IMG/VR virus record: IMGVR_UViG_3300033148_004780
Location: 1 to 48,560 of that record
Length of the DNA stretch: 48,560 bases
DNA from: a virus
Direction: 5' to 3' (one strand)
The notes beneath the pieces were generated by a model. The model saw only the letters and a program-made list of their open reading frames with translations. It was not told the DNA's origin and ran no database searches. Position numbers and translations under genes: made by a program. Positions 6,582 to 48,560 of the stretch are shown piece by piece (within the stretch, counting starts at the first letter, position 1; every line of letters begins with the position of its first letter).

Positions 6582-6738
6582 TAAACCCCCCTATAAAGTA
6601 GTCGCACTCTCCGACCGTGAAGTCGAAGGGCTCGAAAATATAGCACTGTCTATCTGCGGAGGGACACGTGTACCTCTCGCACTTGTCCTTGATAGGACAC
6701 CTGTCTGCCTGGCACTTGGCTCGATCGCCGTCAATCAT
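6550..6738 (-). CDS. Small Cys-rich protein, probable metal binding
   Basis: 62 residues with six or more Cys in C-x4-CP-x4-C-x3-YTCP...QCYIFEP...ECDYFIGG order. Many phages carry small proteins of this CP..C.RY type, presumed to bind zinc or an Fe-S cluster. It is translation-coupled to the radical SAM gene upstream (8-base overlap), so a role with that enzyme is possible. Confidence 0.7.
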   Translation of the reverse strand: MIDGDRAKCQADRCPIKDKCERYTCPSADRQCYIFEPFDFTVGECDYFIGGFNEEEDSKKRS

Positions 6739-7288
6739 CGAAGTAATCCTTAGCTAACACGAACAGCGTTTCGTTCGAAGCTATGCTAACAGGTCTCTCT
6801 TCCGTTGGCGGGAACATCGACCTTAGCTCAACCGAGTCCCAGGCGTGAGGGTTAACAGGCAGTGATCTTAGGATGGAAGCGTTGATTACCAACCTGTTCG
6901 AACACGGAACATCGAAACCCTTAACTAACGCCTGCTGAACTGTGTTTAACATTCGAATGTCGGCGGGTTCTGCTGAATGGACCGTGTACGTCAATCCATC
7001 AACCCAACTTAGGTATTCCATCATCTGCTCCTCATCCGTAGAGTAGGCAGTGTTGATGTATACCTGATTGAAGTGGTTGTTTGCCTCGGACAGGATGTCC
7101 AAGATAGAAGCGTGAAGAAGTGGTTCTCCTCCGGTTATAACGATCTTATCGTAGTACTTCGGAAGATGCCGAAAGTTGTGGATTTCTGGTAACATCTTGT
7201 CTTTCAATCCGTTGTTGGCACAGTAGTAACAAGATCTCGGACATTCCCAAGTTACTATGACCCTTGCTGTGTCTTTGTTGATAGACAT
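6731..7288 (-). CDS. Radical SAM superfamily protein
   Basis: 185 residues. CPRSCYYC (Cys 16, 20, 23) is the CxxxCxxC cluster motif that binds 4Fe-4S and S-adenosylmethionine. ITGGEPLL follows near residue 50, the GGE motif for SAM. The length fits a minimal enzyme of the QueE/NrdG-like size class. No queuosine, ribonucleotide reductase or other partner gene is seen, so the substrate is unknown. The start at 7288 follows GAGGAGG, and the small Cys-rich protein is coupled at the 3' end. Confidence 0.9.
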   Translation of the reverse strand: MSINKDTARVIVTWECPRSCYYCANNGLKDKMLPEIHNFRHLPKYYDKIVITGGEPLLHASILDILSEANNHFNQVYINTAYSTDEEQMMEYLSWVDGLTYTVHSAEPADIRMLNTVQQALVKGFDVPCSNRLVINASILRSLPVNPHAWDSVELRSMFPPTEERPVSIASNETLFVLAKDYFDD

Positions 7289-7380: not shown

Positions 7381-7413
7381 GTTTCAACCCATGCGCTCTG
7401 TGTGGAGCGCAAC
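7381..7413 (-). repeat. Solitary CRISPR-repeat-like unit 1 (type I-C-like)
   Basis: 33 bp read on the minus strand: begins GTTGC, has a 6-bp stem GCGCTC/GAGCGC with loop CACACA, and ends ATGGGTTGAAAC. Length, stem placement and the terminal TTGAAAC match type I-C CRISPR repeats. It forms the last codons and stop of the gene at 7384-7641 and is in the sense orientation. No second repeat at spacer distance is present, so it is not an array. Confidence 0.7.
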
Positions 7414-7641
7414 GTTCTGCATAAGCTTTCGCTGACAGCGGAATACAGGGAATCCCAACGATGTCTTCATCTCCTCTTCAACGAAGTACACGTCGATGAT
7501 TCCTTCTCTACCGGGTAGATACAAGCCTATTTTCTTAGCCTTGAGAATCTGCTGGGTTATCTTGTCGAGGATTTCTCCTTGACAACCAACAAAGTCCTCG
7601 GGGTGGTCGTTCATGTACTTGATTTCTTCTAAGCTTCTCAT
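7384..7641 (-). CDS. Hypothetical early protein ending in CRISPR-like repeat
   Basis: 85 residues from the ATG at 7641, chosen because the promoter -10 box lies at 7654-7659 and excludes the upstream ATG; GTAGGGAG gives a modest ribosome site. Its last ten or so codons are the CRISPR-like repeat unit. The protein has a helical N-terminal half and a strand-rich part (KIGLYLPGREGIIDVYFVEEE). Family unknown. Given the location it is worth testing for an anti-defence role. Confidence 0.65.
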   Translation of the reverse strand: MRSLEEIKYMNDHPEDFVGCQGEILDKITQQILKAKKIGLYLPGREGIIDVYFVEEEMKTSLGFPVFRCQRKLMQNVALHTERMG

Positions 7642-8435: not shown

Positions 8436-8996
8436 TCATAGATACCTCAACGGATGGTAGAAATCCTGTAGCTCCTGCTCTACGTAGGAGTCCAAGTTAT
8501 CGAGGGCGGCTTGATACTCGCGGATCTTGTTCTCAACCCGAGGCTTGATGTCTTTCTTCCACTTCTCCTTGGCAACCTCGATTAGATCATCTAAAGCCTT
8601 GAGCTTTTCTTCAGCCCATCGGGCTAACAGGTATTGGCGTCCTTCCTCGGTTGTGCCTATGACAACGGGATCGGGTTCAACGTCATCGTAGCAGATGACC
8701 AGCTCCTTGAAGTAGGATTCCTTCTCTGCTAACGCTATAGCACCGAGGACCGGAATTGGTATCGGCGACCTATCGTAGGCATTTGGGGATTCCCGCCTTG
8801 GTAGGAGGATCTTCAACGCCTGCGCCTCTCTAGTGTTCAACGGGTAGAACGGAATCGGTGACTTCGCTCTGCCTTCGATGAGCTTGCGTTGACCTTCGAG
8901 GTCAAGTTCCTCGATTAGCTTTTCCCATTCCTTGCGTTTCTCGTCGTCAAAGACGAGTTCCTCTGTTTCTTTGATTACAGCAACCTCTATGTCCAT
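8436..8996 (-). CDS. Hypothetical helical protein coupled to the Ro60-like gene
   Basis: 186 residues, rich in charged helices. The middle segment is PIPFYPLNTREAQALKILLPRRESP and the C-terminal half is a long coiled coil. Its start overlaps the end of the TROVE gene by 10 bases (GGAGGTTGAATC before the ATG), so the two are probably made together. It may act with the RNA-binding protein, but no domain is recognised. Confidence 0.7.
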   Translation of the reverse strand: MDIEVAVIKETEELVFDDEKRKEWEKLIEELDLEGQRKLIEGRAKSPIPFYPLNTREAQALKILLPRRESPNAYDRSPIPIPVLGAIALAEKESYFKELVICYDDVEPDPVVIGTTEEGRQYLLARWAEEKLKALDDLIEVAKEKWKKDIKPRVENKIREYQAALDNLDSYVEQELQDFYHPLRYL

Positions 8997-10336
8997 GATT
9001 CAACCTCCCTAACAAAATCAAGCACCGCTGAAGAAAAGCCGTTGATGCAGGTCCAATCGTTTTCTTGCGAAACCGCGAACTGATAGGGCGCTATGTTCAT
9101 CATATAGCCTGGGCGCTTAACACCTGGGCAAGAATCGTGAAATTGTTCATCTGTTATACAGATAATCCTTGAATGCGGAAGGGATTGTGCGTATCTAATC
9201 GCAGCCCCTCCGTTGGTACTGCCACCGAGCTCCCCCGTTGCCTTGAATAGAGCATCCCTTAAGGCAAAACCCCGCCGAGGTGGAACCTCTGTATAGAGGG
9301 TAGCGAACGCGATTACCCTTGAATGCTCGCATACCTCACGAGCAAGGATAGCTATCGCTGCGGCTGCTTCATGTCTTATAACCTCGGACCTGTTAGATAG
9401 GGGGCAGCCCCGCATAGAACCAGACACGTCCACTAGGATGATCGTCTCTCCTTTGAGCTTGGGAATCTCTTCCGATGCCTTGAACATGAGATGTTCAAGC
9501 TCCGGCTCGAACTGTGGAGCGTACTTAGCAGCGGTAAGGAATCTATAAGGGAGGATTCTCCGAACGTTCAACTGCTTAAGGTAGGTACGGATCTTGGTTA
9601 TATCTACTCCCTGCTCTGTCATGTTGCGGAGATTGCGGATGGTTGCCATAGCACCGAGCTTCTGCTTGTCCATAAGCTCTTCGAAAGAAGCTTTCTTCTG
9701 TTGTTTTTTCTGCTCGGCTGTGCCTTCAACCTCGGATAACTTCTTCTCCCAGGTTTCTGCAACCTTGAGCTTGCCTTGAACCAACCTACCCCAAAGAGCA
9801 GCTTGCTCGTCGTTCTTCGGCTTAGGTCTTGCGATCTTCATCACGTCTCGAAGCTTGATAGCTTTGTCTTCTTGCTTGTACTTCCTGAGCTGGTATTCAT
9901 CGAACTTTCTGAACGCCTCGCCTAAGCCTTTCTTTACCTGTCTCGTGAAGGATTCTCCAACGGTCTTACGGTCAGAGGAACCTCTCAAATACATGGCAAC
10001 AAACTCGGTAATCTCGTCGGGGCGTTGGATTACATCAACGAGCTCATTAGCCTTCATCTTACCATTCTTGGCAAGAGCGCACATTACCCACAAGGGCACG
10101 TGCCTTAGATTCAACCGCGATCTTGCTTCGTTAGCAAGGGCAACGGCGTCCTTTTTTCCTACCTGCAAGGTCAAGCGGGCTATCCTATCAGCGATGTCCT
10201 CACCGCTTTCGTAGAACGTATTCTCCCACAAAAGACAAGCGCAGACAGCGCGCTTAAGCTCTCTTAGCAGGGGGATTTTAACCGCTTTACCGCCCTCGTA
10301 GGTGATTGTCTTTGTTGGTTGTCGATTCAACTTCAT
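8987..10336 (-). CDS. TROVE/Ro60-like RNA-binding protein with vWFA domain
   Basis: 449 residues. The N-terminal two thirds are helical repeats of TROVE character (RLTLQVGKKDAVALANEARSRLNLRHVPLWVMCALAKNGKM; then FLTAAKYAPQFEPELEHLMFKAS). A von Willebrand A domain follows with the complete MIDAS motif DVSGSM (near residue 305) and later Thr/Asp positions (STNGGAA, ITDEQFHD). Ro60 proteins form a ring that binds misfolded RNA ends and Y RNAs, and bacterial and phage versions are known. At 449 residues it is a little shorter than cellular Ro60. The neighbouring 11-16 kb region is rich in tRNA-like and other structured RNAs that could be its ligands; that link is inference. Confidence 0.92.
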   Translation of the reverse strand: MKLNRQPTKTITYEGGKAVKIPLLRELKRAVCACLLWENTFYESGEDIADRIARLTLQVGKKDAVALANEARSRLNLRHVPLWVMCALAKNGKMKANELVDVIQRPDEITEFVAMYLRGSSDRKTVGESFTRQVKKGLGEAFRKFDEYQLRKYKQEDKAIKLRDVMKIARPKPKNDEQAALWGRLVQGKLKVAETWEKKLSEVEGTAEQKKQQKKASFEELMDKQKLGAMATIRNLRNMTEQGVDITKIRTYLKQLNVRRILPYRFLTAAKYAPQFEPELEHLMFKASEEIPKLKGETIILVDVSGSMRGCPLSNRSEVIRHEAAAAIAILAREVCEHSRVIAFATLYTEVPPRRGFALRDALFKATGELGGSTNGGAAIRYAQSLPHSRIICITDEQFHDSCPGVKRPGYMMNIAPYQFAVSQENDWTCINGFSSAVLDFVREVESWT

Positions 10337-15249: not shown

Positions 15250-15441
15250 TCACTTAAACCTGATGAATATCTTCGCGTCGACCAGCTGGCCGTGCGTTAG
15301 ACCTTGACGACGGACATATTCGATCGATTCAACTATGTTGTAGTCCTCGTCATCGTTCGAAGAGCGGAGTGTTACGACTTCTGTCTCGCCATTTCCATCA
15401 GGAACCTTAGCTAATGCTGCCTTGACCTCTTTTAGGGTCAT
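15250..15441 (-). CDS. Small hypothetical protein
   Basis: 63 residues. The ATG at 15441 follows AGAAGGAG, which lies only a few bases after the second CRISPR-like unit. TLKEVKAALAKVPDGNGETEVVTLRSSND suggests a helix then strands. Function unknown. Confidence 0.7.
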   Translation of the reverse strand: MTLKEVKAALAKVPDGNGETEVVTLRSSNDDEDYNIVESIEYVRRQGLTHGQLVDAKIFIRFK

Positions 15442-15456
15442 GTATTACTCCTTCTT

Positions 15457-15489
15457 GTTTCAATCCACGCGCTCTGTATAGAGCGCGAC
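15457..15489 (-). repeat. Solitary CRISPR-repeat-like unit 2 (type I-C-like)
   Basis: 33 bp on the minus strand beginning GTCGC, with stem GCGCTC/GAGCGC and loop TATACA, ending CGTGGATTGAAAC. It is closer to canonical type I-C repeats than unit 1 and differs from it at six positions, none in the stem. It starts directly after a TAA stop (15490-15492) and ends just before the ribosome site of the next gene, filling the intergenic gap. Confidence 0.75.
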
Positions 15490-15723
15490 TTATTTGAATA
15501 GTTTGTCGAATTCCCGCTTTGATGAAGGCTTGTTAGTGAGTGCTTCATCTATGCAACTCGTAAGCGCTCGCTCAACAGCGATGAAAACCGTTTCATCCTT
15601 TGAGCTGCGCGCGGTCTTTGCTTGTACCCTGTAGTAGTCTCGTTTTTTTACGAGTACGTCCCTTAAGCGGTCGAAATCGGAAAACTTCCTACTCCGGTGG
15701 ATTTTCTCCTTGCTTCTTGACAT
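15490..15723 (-). CDS. Small basic hypothetical protein
   Basis: 77 residues, basic and helical (SRSKEKIHRSRKFSDFDRLRDVLVKKRDYYRVQAKTA). It overlaps the upstream gene by 35 bases. Its stop codon directly abuts CRISPR-like unit 2. A role in handling that RNA is conceivable but unsupported. Confidence 0.65.
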   Translation of the reverse strand: MSRSKEKIHRSRKFSDFDRLRDVLVKKRDYYRVQAKTARSSKDETVFIAVERALTSCIDEALTNKPSSKREFDKLFK

Positions 15724-17252: not shown

Positions 17253-17387
17253 AGTAGACTCCTCGATTATGTAAAAGATCATATCGGTCAACGACCGACG
17301 ACAAAAGACATGCAAACTCCGTGCCAAACCTTTTTTTCCACAAGTTTTCAACAGGGTTAAATCCTTTTGGCAAAAGGAATTAAAAAG

Positions 17388-17960
17388 TTATCCACAGATT
17401 TATCCACAGCCTGGGGGAAAACTCCAAAATCTCCAACGTGGGTCAAAACGACACAGGACTATACGGATGTATAGTAGTATTTTAGAGGTATTGGAGATTT
17501 TTGGTGGGTCATTTTGCCCATCAAGGCAAATAGTGGGATATTTTGACACATTCACAGGTTTTCAACAGGTTATCCACAATCTGCGCGCGGAGCGCGCGTG
17601 TTGAACACGGAGCGCGGGGCAGCTGTCCCAAGAAGCCCAAGAAGGTCAGAGCCTATACAAGTGTTAGCTAAACTCTTGTATAGTAGGCATTTAGGGTGGT
17701 TATAAGATTTTTTGGGATTATAGGGGGTTATAAAATCAGTTATATCCTTGTAGGATAAGGATTTATCTATGATTATAAAAATTATATATACATATGTTAA
17801 GTATTTTCCATTTTGTGACATTTTGGTGAATGTGTCAATAAAGGGAATATTAGGGTTTATATGTTATAATTCTTATAATCGCGTAACTCCTTGCAGGGAA
17901 AGGAATTAACTCTTATAACTTTTTATAATTTCTTATAATTGCATAAACCCGTAGCTAGCT
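17388..17960. other. Candidate replication origin (DnaA boxes, AT-rich repeats)
   Basis: Three perfect TTATCCACA DnaA boxes (17388-17396, 17400-17408, 17570-17578), a TTGACACATTCAC inverted repeat (17543-17555 and 17826-17838), a CTATACAAG/CTTGTATAG palindrome (17653-17683), and an AT-rich tract with repeated TTATAA/CTTATAAT words (about 17690-17945) lie in a stretch without genes. This is the expected architecture of a DnaA-type origin with an unwinding element. Confidence 0.7.
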
Positions 17961-19668: not shown

Positions 19669-19990
19669 CCTTTACCTCCAAATCCGCAGGGTTTATCGGC
19701 CTGTAATGGCGTTTAAACTTCTTTTGGAACTCCAAAACGGACCCGGTTTTTCCTAAGGCCCCTAAAAGCTCCGTGTGAACTTGTACAGCTTCCATTAGCT
19801 CTGTTAAGCAGGTCAAGATCGCCTCGATAGGTAGGGGCAGGTGTTGTTGACCTTGATTTTTCGGGTCGATGATCCGAGATTTCCTTGCTTTTTGAATCTG
19901 GTTCAGCGCTCCAAGTACCTGCTGCCAGTGCGGGGGCAAAACCATCCCTATTTTAGCTTCTGGTTGTTTCTTTTTCGTCTTTTCCGTCAT
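19658..19990 (-). CDS. Hypothetical protein
   Basis: 110 residues from the ATG at 19990, which lies within the 3' end of the GroES-like gene and follows GGACGAGG. Basic N-terminus, then helices (IEAILTCLTELMEAVQVHTELLGAL). No motif identified. Confidence 0.6.
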   Translation of the reverse strand: MTEKTKKKQPEAKIGMVLPPHWQQVLGALNQIQKARKSRIIDPKNQGQQHLPLPIEAILTCLTELMEAVQVHTELLGALGKTGSVLEFQKKFKRHYRPINPADLEVKDEK

Positions 19991-20249
19991 CCTCGTCCTC
20001 CACAACAGCTAAGATGTTGTCTTCGTCCAAAATAGTGAGCGTTTCTCCGTTTACCGTGATCTCGGTTCCCGAGTAGAGGTCCACGATTACGTGATCCCCT
20101 GTTTTTATGTTCTCTACCTCGTCGCCAACGTACACGACATCAGCTTCGAGTTGCTTCTTTTGAGCGCTTGGTGGTAGGAAAATCCCCCCCTCACTAACGG
20201 GGGCCAAGATCCTTACCTTCACCGCTATTCTTGTTCCTAAGAGTTTCAT
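19953..20249 (-). CDS. GroES-like co-chaperonin (Cpn10)
   Basis: 98 residues from the ATG at 20249 (GGAGG upstream). MKLLGTRIAVKV...GGIFLPPSAQKKQLEADVVYVGDEVENIKTGDHVIVDLYSGTEI...ILDEDNILAVVED follows the Cpn10 fold end to end, including the mobile-loop region (SEGGIFLPPS). Such phage co-chaperonins replace GroES so that host GroEL can fold the capsid protein, as T4 gp31 does. It is expressed from the early divergent promoter. An acidic and basic C-terminal tail is appended. Confidence 0.88.
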   Translation of the reverse strand: MKLLGTRIAVKVRILAPVSEGGIFLPPSAQKKQLEADVVYVGDEVENIKTGDHVIVDLYSGTEITVNGETLTILDEDNILAVVEDEDDGKDEKETTRS

Positions 20250-20526
20250 TAAAAGCCTCCAATTTCTTCTCGTTGATATAGCTTCGGATTTCAAAGGGTA
20301 GTTGCCCAATTACCCTAATTTCACCAATTTCGTTAATCTCCACAATAACCGTATAAGCGAACGAATCTGTAAGCTCTACAATTCCTTCTCCTCGAAACTT
20401 GATTTGAATGGGTGGTTCGAGGTAGTTCAAAGCCAACCGGGTTTCTATGTTAGCATATGAACTACGTTCTTCACCTGTACAGCCTATCAACAACATACAA
20501 AATATCAGTGTTCTTAAGAAGGTCAT
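20194..20526 (-). CDS. Lipoprotein, first gene of the early arm
   Basis: 110 residues from the ATG at 20526. Signal peptide MTFLRTLIFCMLLIGC with lipobox LIGC, then a strand-rich domain (IQIKFRGEGIVELTDSFAYTVIVEINEIGEIRVIG). The ATG is at the expected transcription start of the 20533-20561 promoter, so the mRNA is probably leaderless. First-expressed lipoproteins often block superinfection, a reasonable guess here. It overlaps the GroES-like gene. Confidence 0.75.
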   Translation of the reverse strand: MTFLRTLIFCMLLIGCTGEERSSYANIETRLALNYLEPPIQIKFRGEGIVELTDSFAYTVIVEINEIGEIRVIGQLPFEIRSYINEKKLEAFNETLRNKNSGEGKDLGPR

Positions 20527-47695: not shown

Positions 47696-48560
47696 TACTT
47701 CTTCTTCTCCTTCCAGGGCTTTAGGGTTCCCCAACTGTGTCCCACCTCAACGTCAACAGGAAACACAACTTCCTTTCCCTTGTATTCAACGGGTTTCTGC
47801 ATCTCAGCAAGGACAACCTCTTTGATGTAGGCATCTTGTTCGTGTTCGAATACCTCGAATAGAAGTTCGTCGTGTACTTGTAAGAGCATGTTCCCCCGAC
47901 TGTCGTCGCGGTCTTCGATACGAATCATAGCTTGGTTGATAATCGAAGCCGCGCCTCCTTGGATAGGTGTGTTAAGAGCTTCCTTGAGGATATCTCGGTG
48001 GTCTCCAAGAAGTCTGCGCACGCGCCCAGAGAACGTTTCAGCCTGACGAGTTCTGTATACGTCGCGCTGAATAGCTGAGTACCACTCTGTATACTTGGGA
48101 TGCGTTCTGAAATACTCCTCGCTGAGTTCCTTAACTTTTCGAGCTGTAATACCAGCTCTCGGACACTGTGTAACAATCCTGTAGTAGATTTCATGTTCGC
48201 TGCCTCCATAAGCTATCCTTCCAAAGAAGAATGTCTTTGCCACTCGGCGGTACATGTTCCATCTTTCGTCTTCTTCATCGATTCCGAACAACAGCTTGGT
48301 GTTGAGATCGTGAATGTTACCCCCACCTTCAAGATATCTCCAAAGGTCGGTATCCTCTGTCTCAAGAGCAATAACACGAACTTCCAGGTTGGAATAGTCA
48401 GCGGCTACAAGTACACGACCGTGATCTGCCACGAAAGCTTTTCGTACGGCTTTCTCTTGTTTAGGAAGGTTTTGTAGGTTCGGTTCCTTAGAGGCAAGGC
48501 GCCCGGTTCTCGTACCGTGAATAAGAAAGCTGGTGTGAACCCGTCCATCCGCATGGGGAA
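47695..48560 (-). CDS. UDG-exonuclease-DNA polymerase A fusion, C-terminal polymerase domain (continues at base 1990 to 1)
   Basis: This holds the catalytic core of the family A polymerase. Motif A is AADYSNLEVRVIA with the metal-binding Asp. Motif B is RRVAKTFFFGRIAYGG, with the conserved Arg, Lys and Tyr and a Phe at the position equivalent to E. coli Pol I F762; the segment before YG is one residue longer than usual. Motif C is LLQVHDELLFEV with the second catalytic Asp. The stop TAA (47695-47697) overlaps the ATG of the next gene (47693-47695), which points to translational coupling. Bases 48447-48560 duplicate 1-114 and should be counted once. Confidence 0.95.
   Translation of the reverse strand, partial: PHADGRVHTSFLIHGTRTGRLASKEPNLQNLPKQEKAVRKAFVADHGRVLVAADYSNLEVRVIALETEDTDLWRYLEGGGNIHDLNTKLLFGIDEEDERWNMYRRVAKTFFFGRIAYGGSEHEIYYRIVTQCPRAGITARKVKELSEEYFRTHPKYTEWYSAIQRDVYRTRQAETFSGRVRRLLGDHRDILKEALNTPIQGGAASIINQAMIRIEDRDDSRGNMLLQVHDELLFEVFEHEQDAYIKEVVLAEMQKPVEYKGKEVVFPVDVEVGHSWGTLKPWKEKKK
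48447..48560. repeat. 114-bp terminal overlap (copy 2)
   Basis: Exact second copy of bases 1-114. Joining the two copies restores one uninterrupted polymerase gene across the window ends. Confidence 0.95.

Follow-up and report, generated by a model that had tools for sequence, protein, structure and literature searches.

Our analyses revealed that the viral DNA studied here (the window, meaning the whole 48,560-nt stretch that was analysed) carries a real, non-chance pair of mimics of the type I-C CRISPR repeat. Both are probably RNA decoys of that repeat, that is, RacrIC-like RNA anti-CRISPRs. RNA anti-CRISPR activity has been shown for solitary repeat units, of which 2,103 have been listed in viruses (Camara-Wilpert 2023; PMC10651486). 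One, RacrIC1 from a Bifidobacterium pseudocatenulatum prophage, lies 11 nt behind acrIC5 in one transcript and inhibits type I-C (PMC10651486). Because solitary type I-C units thus form a known class with a tested member, an RNA anti-CRISPR is the best reading of the pair. The preliminary description had proposed this for a single unit; type I-C identity and the known class uphold that proposal, while what it said of solitary status and of a host repeat is corrected below. The two units are as follows:

15457 to 15489, minus strand: unit 1, a type I-C CRISPR-repeat mimic of 33 nt, identified by exact sequence, fold and array identity
7381 to 7413, minus strand: unit 2, a diverged mimic identical to unit 1 at 28 of 33 positions, identified by mismatch-tolerant search and fold

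Unit 1 (GTCGCGCTCTATACAGAGCGCGTGGATTGAAAC) occupies exactly the 33 nt first assigned to it and sits between two small genes of the same strand:

15490 to 15723, minus strand: 77-aa ORF whose stop abuts unit 1; predicted helical hairpin, weak PHROG match, function not assigned
15250 to 15441, minus strand: 63-aa ORF starting 15 nt past unit 1; no function assigned

The first base of unit 1 lies directly 3′ of the TAA stop of the 77-aa ORF, and 15 nt separate its end from the ATG of the 63-aa ORF, a gap that holds an AAGGAG ribosome site. Unit 1 is thus intergenic, with a stop codon on one side and a ribosome site on the other, as had been described. Its RNA is predicted to fold into an 8-bp stem (positions 3 to 10 with 15 to 22), a 4-nt loop and an unpaired 11-nt tail, with a folding energy of −13.6 kcal/mol and a z score of −3.7 (0 of 200 shuffles as good), which bears out the hairpin noted earlier. 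The tail, TGGATTGAAAC, resembles the type I-C 5′ handle. The sole Rfam match at this site was to a CRISPR direct-repeat family, spanning exactly 15457 to 15489 with an E value of 0.013, under the gathering score. The 77-aa neighbour was considered as an Acr and rejected: it gave no Pfam, NCBIfam or PADLOC match, its predicted structure is a generic helical hairpin without a significant fold match, and no relatives were found beyond the one weak PHROG of unassigned function. A role of the unit 1 hairpin as a terminator was likewise rejected, the only terminator-like call there being on the plus strand, opposing the genes.

Type I-C identity was examined by scanning 257 Gb from the genomes of 84,980 species with a pattern of fixed stem and tail, GTYGCGCTCY-N5-GAGCGCRTGGRTTGAAAY. 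The pattern occurred at 12 places: 8 had two or more copies and were array-like, 2 lay at the end of the available stretch and 2 were single copies in genomes that encode Cas8c. Outside the loop, unit 1 agrees at all 27 positions with arrays in three of these genomes (L003, L005 and L010), and the closest whole repeat matches 29 of 33 positions (88%), differing in the loop. Cas8c/Csd1, the type I-C signature, is encoded in 6 of 8 genomes checked, in one of them on the array's own contig. Because the non-loop positions match real arrays throughout and most such genomes encode Cas8c, the assignment of unit 1 as a type I-C repeat mimic is well supported. The original likening to type I-C repeats therefore stands, and 12 places in 257 Gb, mostly arrays, take the likeness beyond that of a random hairpin. 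Single type I-C units outside a visible array were seen in Yanshouia hominis (L008, 1660 to 1692) and Paenibacillus sp. YN15 (L013, 7583 to 7615), both of whose genomes encode Cas8c; these are possible prophage-borne decoys.

An exact match to a host repeat, which had been suggested as a way to identify the host, was not found: the nearest remained 29 of 33 across the 84,980 species and 538 further genomes from three of the matching groups, the latter giving matches with up to 3 mismatches only in two known array genomes. The loop of neither unit occurs in any genome of the scanned collection. SRUFinder sets a threshold of 90% identity to a repeat in its catalogue; among repeats of the scanned genomes, the best is 88% identical. 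Among viral contigs, neither an exact unit 1 nor a match to a pattern covering both units was found. Plasmids and phages searched with the unit gave weak matches only, in Paenibacillus plasmids and two faecal phage contigs, and the spacers of the fetched type I-C arrays matched nothing longer than 15 nt in the 48,560-nt genome.

The preliminary description stated that unit 1 lies alone. However, unit 2 (GTTGCGCTCCACACAGAGCGCATGGGTTGAAAC, with the tail TGGGTTGAAAC) lies on the same strand 8 kb away. Taking solitary to mean no repeat within 100 bp and a position outside any array, both units are solitary, being the only two copies, 8 kb apart, with neither in an array. Of the five positions that differ, two form the stem-closing pair, two lie at or in the loop and one lies in the tail; the loop letters and most of the tail are common to both units. 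The stem change is compensatory, C3-G22 in unit 1 becoming U3-A22 in unit 2, and the unit 2 RNA is also predicted to fold into the type I-C hairpin (z −2.2). One compensatory pair is modest evidence, yet it is the pattern expected from selection on the hairpin. At handle position 26, unit 1 has A and unit 2 has G, a change absent from every array found with the same core, and no viral contig was found that combines the stem-base and tail variants of unit 2. Unit 2 may be a decayed copy. Two ORFs are relevant to its placement:

7384 to 7641, minus strand: 85-aa ORF that ends within unit 2, which supplies its final nine codons and TGA stop; called from sequence, no family match
6731 to 7288, minus strand: radical-SAM ORF, 92 nt downstream of unit 2; Pfam Radical_SAM

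The final 30 nt of the putative 85-aa ORF lie within unit 2, whose intergenic placement is not clear-cut; the structural model of the 85-aa protein was too poor for use. The downstream ORF matches Pfam Radical_SAM with an E value of 1.7e-6 and 28.7 bits, just short of the curated cut-off of 29.5. This small radical-SAM protein also matches prokaryotic viperin models weakly (4.9e-7), and a QueE-like protein is equally possible.

Positions 1 to 114 and 48447 to 48560 of the window are identical, an exact 114-bp direct terminal repeat, and the DNA polymerase gene is divided between the two genome ends; on these two grounds, the record is probably a complete genome. Its terminase, portal, major head protein, primase and DNA polymerase genes follow the order of Caudoviricetes sp. 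vir526, with a terminase identity of 36%, and from this synteny we infer that the genes on the minus strand serve early functions and replication. Both units lie on the coding strand of these putative early genes. Thus, the orientation in sense that was claimed for unit 1 holds for the pair, with the early status of the genes drawn from synteny. As first described, the genome has no cas genes or array: no Csd1 (Cas8c), Cas5d or Cas7 gene was detected in six frames, and no array was found. A one-protein search with the terminase found no close relatives, and none of the eight distant contigs and vir526 that were aligned carries a unit. Elsewhere on the minus strand, 8987 to 10336 encodes a protein that matches a PHROG of phage RNA-binding proteins; its relatives are annotated as TROVE- and vWFA-domain proteins, and it is 43% identical to Xanthomonas phage proteins.

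Several features bear on the host. Three perfect DnaA boxes (TTATCCACA; 17388, 17400 and 17570) lie next to an AT-rich stretch with many TTATAA motifs, and the region (17380 to 17950) looks like a bacterial-type origin. Two strong sigma-70-like promoters, both at 11/12, lie at 17800 (minus) and 20574 (plus), and a GroES (Cpn10) homologue is encoded at 19953 to 20309 (minus). The DnaA boxes, promoters and GroES homologue may rather suggest a bacterial host. The relative vir526, which carries a Methanomicrobiales host label, also has the GroES homologue (L014, 42826 to 43182), and this label may deserve a check.

For transcription, we considered either an own promoter within 250 bp or cotranscription with the upstream gene. 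The 250 nt preceding unit 1 contain no sigma-70-like promoter, and a terminator-like site (16862 to 16836, minus), consisting of a perfect 11-bp inverted repeat followed by TTTTTATT, lies between the 17.8-kb promoters and the unit. Therefore, transcription of unit 1 is not assured. Its sense placement in an operon is compatible with cotranscription, as for RacrIC1.

A scan of IMG/VR viruses with the pattern GTCGC-N13/14-GCGTGGATTGAAAY returned at least 120 stretches, and at least 91 distinct solitary type I-C units were left after arrays and duplicates had been removed. Among the 91 listed units, 48 (with ORFs of at least 70 aa) or 55 (with ORFs of at least 100 aa) were intergenic, that is, 53 to 60%, against 18 to 24% for random positions; the survey's gene calls are simple ORF picks, and its figures are rough. 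Among the listed units, 30 of 39 ran in the same direction as the gene before them (p 0.001), and 84 of 91 retained stems no shorter than 6 bp. Among the matches listed, contigs 3300031673_000079, 3300032069_000010 and 3300018019_000025 have two or three dispersed units each. Such dispersed units were seen in IMG/VR viruses under L034 and L041 (one contig), L060, L029 and L102: three identical units in one contig, two different units in L060 and, in L029 as well as L102, two units separated by 3.7 kb. Therefore, the two-copy arrangement seen here is not unique.

The proposed decoy mechanism draws on type I-C crRNA processing. Cas5c (Cas5d) cuts type I-C repeats to leave an 11-nt 5′ handle (PMC5965380). 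Type I-C is without Cas6; repeat cleavage is the task of Cas5c, which together with Cas7 also grips the 5′ handle, nucleating Cascade (PMC7684278), and the Cas5c–Cas7–crRNA complex is stable even without Cas8c (PMC7684278). The units would be transcribed in sense within early minus-strand mRNAs. A host Cas5c would then recognise the hairpin and cleave the RNA after position 22, where the stem ends on its 3′ side. Of the two products, the one upstream would retain the hairpin and could hold one Cas5c, while the downstream one would start with the 11-nt handle UGGAUUGAAAC, on which Cas5c and Cas7 could begin assembly, joined to viral mRNA and not to a spacer. Cas proteins would in this way be consumed in complexes unable to target the virus.

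Other explanations were weighed against RNA decoys. One is that the units are crRNA-like guides and not pure decoys, with host Cascade assembling on the handle plus downstream sequence and being steered to a target, on the model of single-repeat viral mini-arrays or CreA-type regulators. The handle of unit 1 is intact, Cas5c cleavage would leave a 5′ handle on an RNA of guide length, and viral mini-arrays and Cas-dependent repression provide precedents. However, neither unit is flanked by a second repeat, and the sequence downstream of unit 1 is the ribosome site and start of a gene. The first 35 nt after unit 1 match at most 15 of 35 positions within the virus, and no 8-nt seed match was found for unit 2; a self-targeting guide was rejected, there being no convincing target within the virus. 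We therefore regard guides as unlikely. Equally improbable is a cis-acting RNA element, in which an operon-junction hairpin marks the site of RNase cleavage or shields the end of an mRNA and resembles a CRISPR repeat since Cas5c or another enzyme processes the mRNA. Unit 1 fills the gap between stop and ribosome site exactly, unit 2 bears the stop codon of an ORF, and the survey units also favour sense sites just after genes. Against this, a generic hairpin has no need of the type I-C tail sequence, and two units among dozens of early genes are few for a general processing signal. In addition, the minus strand has no T run after the hairpin, which is therefore not an intrinsic terminator.

A Cas-sensing switch, in which Cas5c cleavage at both units would sequester Cas5c and Cas7 and also shift the expression of neighbouring genes, is very unlikely; if true, the 63-aa gene and the radical-SAM gene would be affected, and early expression would respond to host CRISPR immunity. 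There is also little probability that the units have no function as RNA and are array remnants left by recombination or sites at which the virus can integrate into a host array. Repeat-like sites for array integration have been proposed before, and the unit is composed like a full repeat, but the five diverged positions include a compensatory change that preserved the hairpin, both units are in sense in compact operons, and no integrase was found among the subset of ORF proteins scanned. Finally, chance alone would give 0.49 matches to a loose 16-letter pattern (3 mismatches allowed) in a genome of 48,560 nt, but the counts of the full core (27 fixed positions) in the genome collection, together with two such units within one 48-kb genome, refute a chance hairpin resembling a type I-C repeat, and chance is excluded.

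RNA decoys thus remain the favoured reading, and the window adds a well-defined candidate type I-C pair to the RNA anti-CRISPRs, from a virus group without a close isolate in the collections searched. The pair raises the question of which cleavage product inhibits where repeat cutting and handle binding fall to a single enzyme, and whether several dispersed units in early mRNAs provide a higher dose.

Among comparable known systems, RacrIC1 is likewise a viral, solitary type I-C mimic that forms a hairpin, lies in sense between genes and is not accompanied by cas genes. The gap behind the small upstream gene is 11 nt for RacrIC1 and 0 nt for unit 1. Unlike the virus of RacrIC1, the present virus has two units and no recognisable acr neighbour, and no cognate repeat was found in the genomes searched; its units are candidates, whereas RacrIC1 is a tested inhibitor. 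RacrIF1 is also a short hairpin RNA that mimics a repeat, with proposed competition for Cas proteins, but belongs to type I-F, which has Cas6f. In type I-F, inhibition comes from the cleavage product that lies upstream of the cut and carries the hairpin, without any need for the handle (PMC10651486). In contrast, the type I-C processing enzyme, Cas5c, is also the handle binder; therefore, either cleavage product could act. Viral CRISPR mini-arrays (PMC11656645) similarly place repeats in viral genomes without cas genes, but their repeats flank one or two spacers, whereas the units here are single; membership of a mini-array was rejected, as no second repeat lies near unit 1 or unit 2. The solitary type I-C units of IMG/VR viruses share with the pair the same tail, stem position and placement at gene junctions, and some occur as two or three dispersed units, although their stems and loops are different. 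The mechanism and a type I-C example have already been published, and this pair is a further example of a known anti-CRISPR class; its sole unusual aspect is the two-copy, operon-embedded layout, which other viruses have too.
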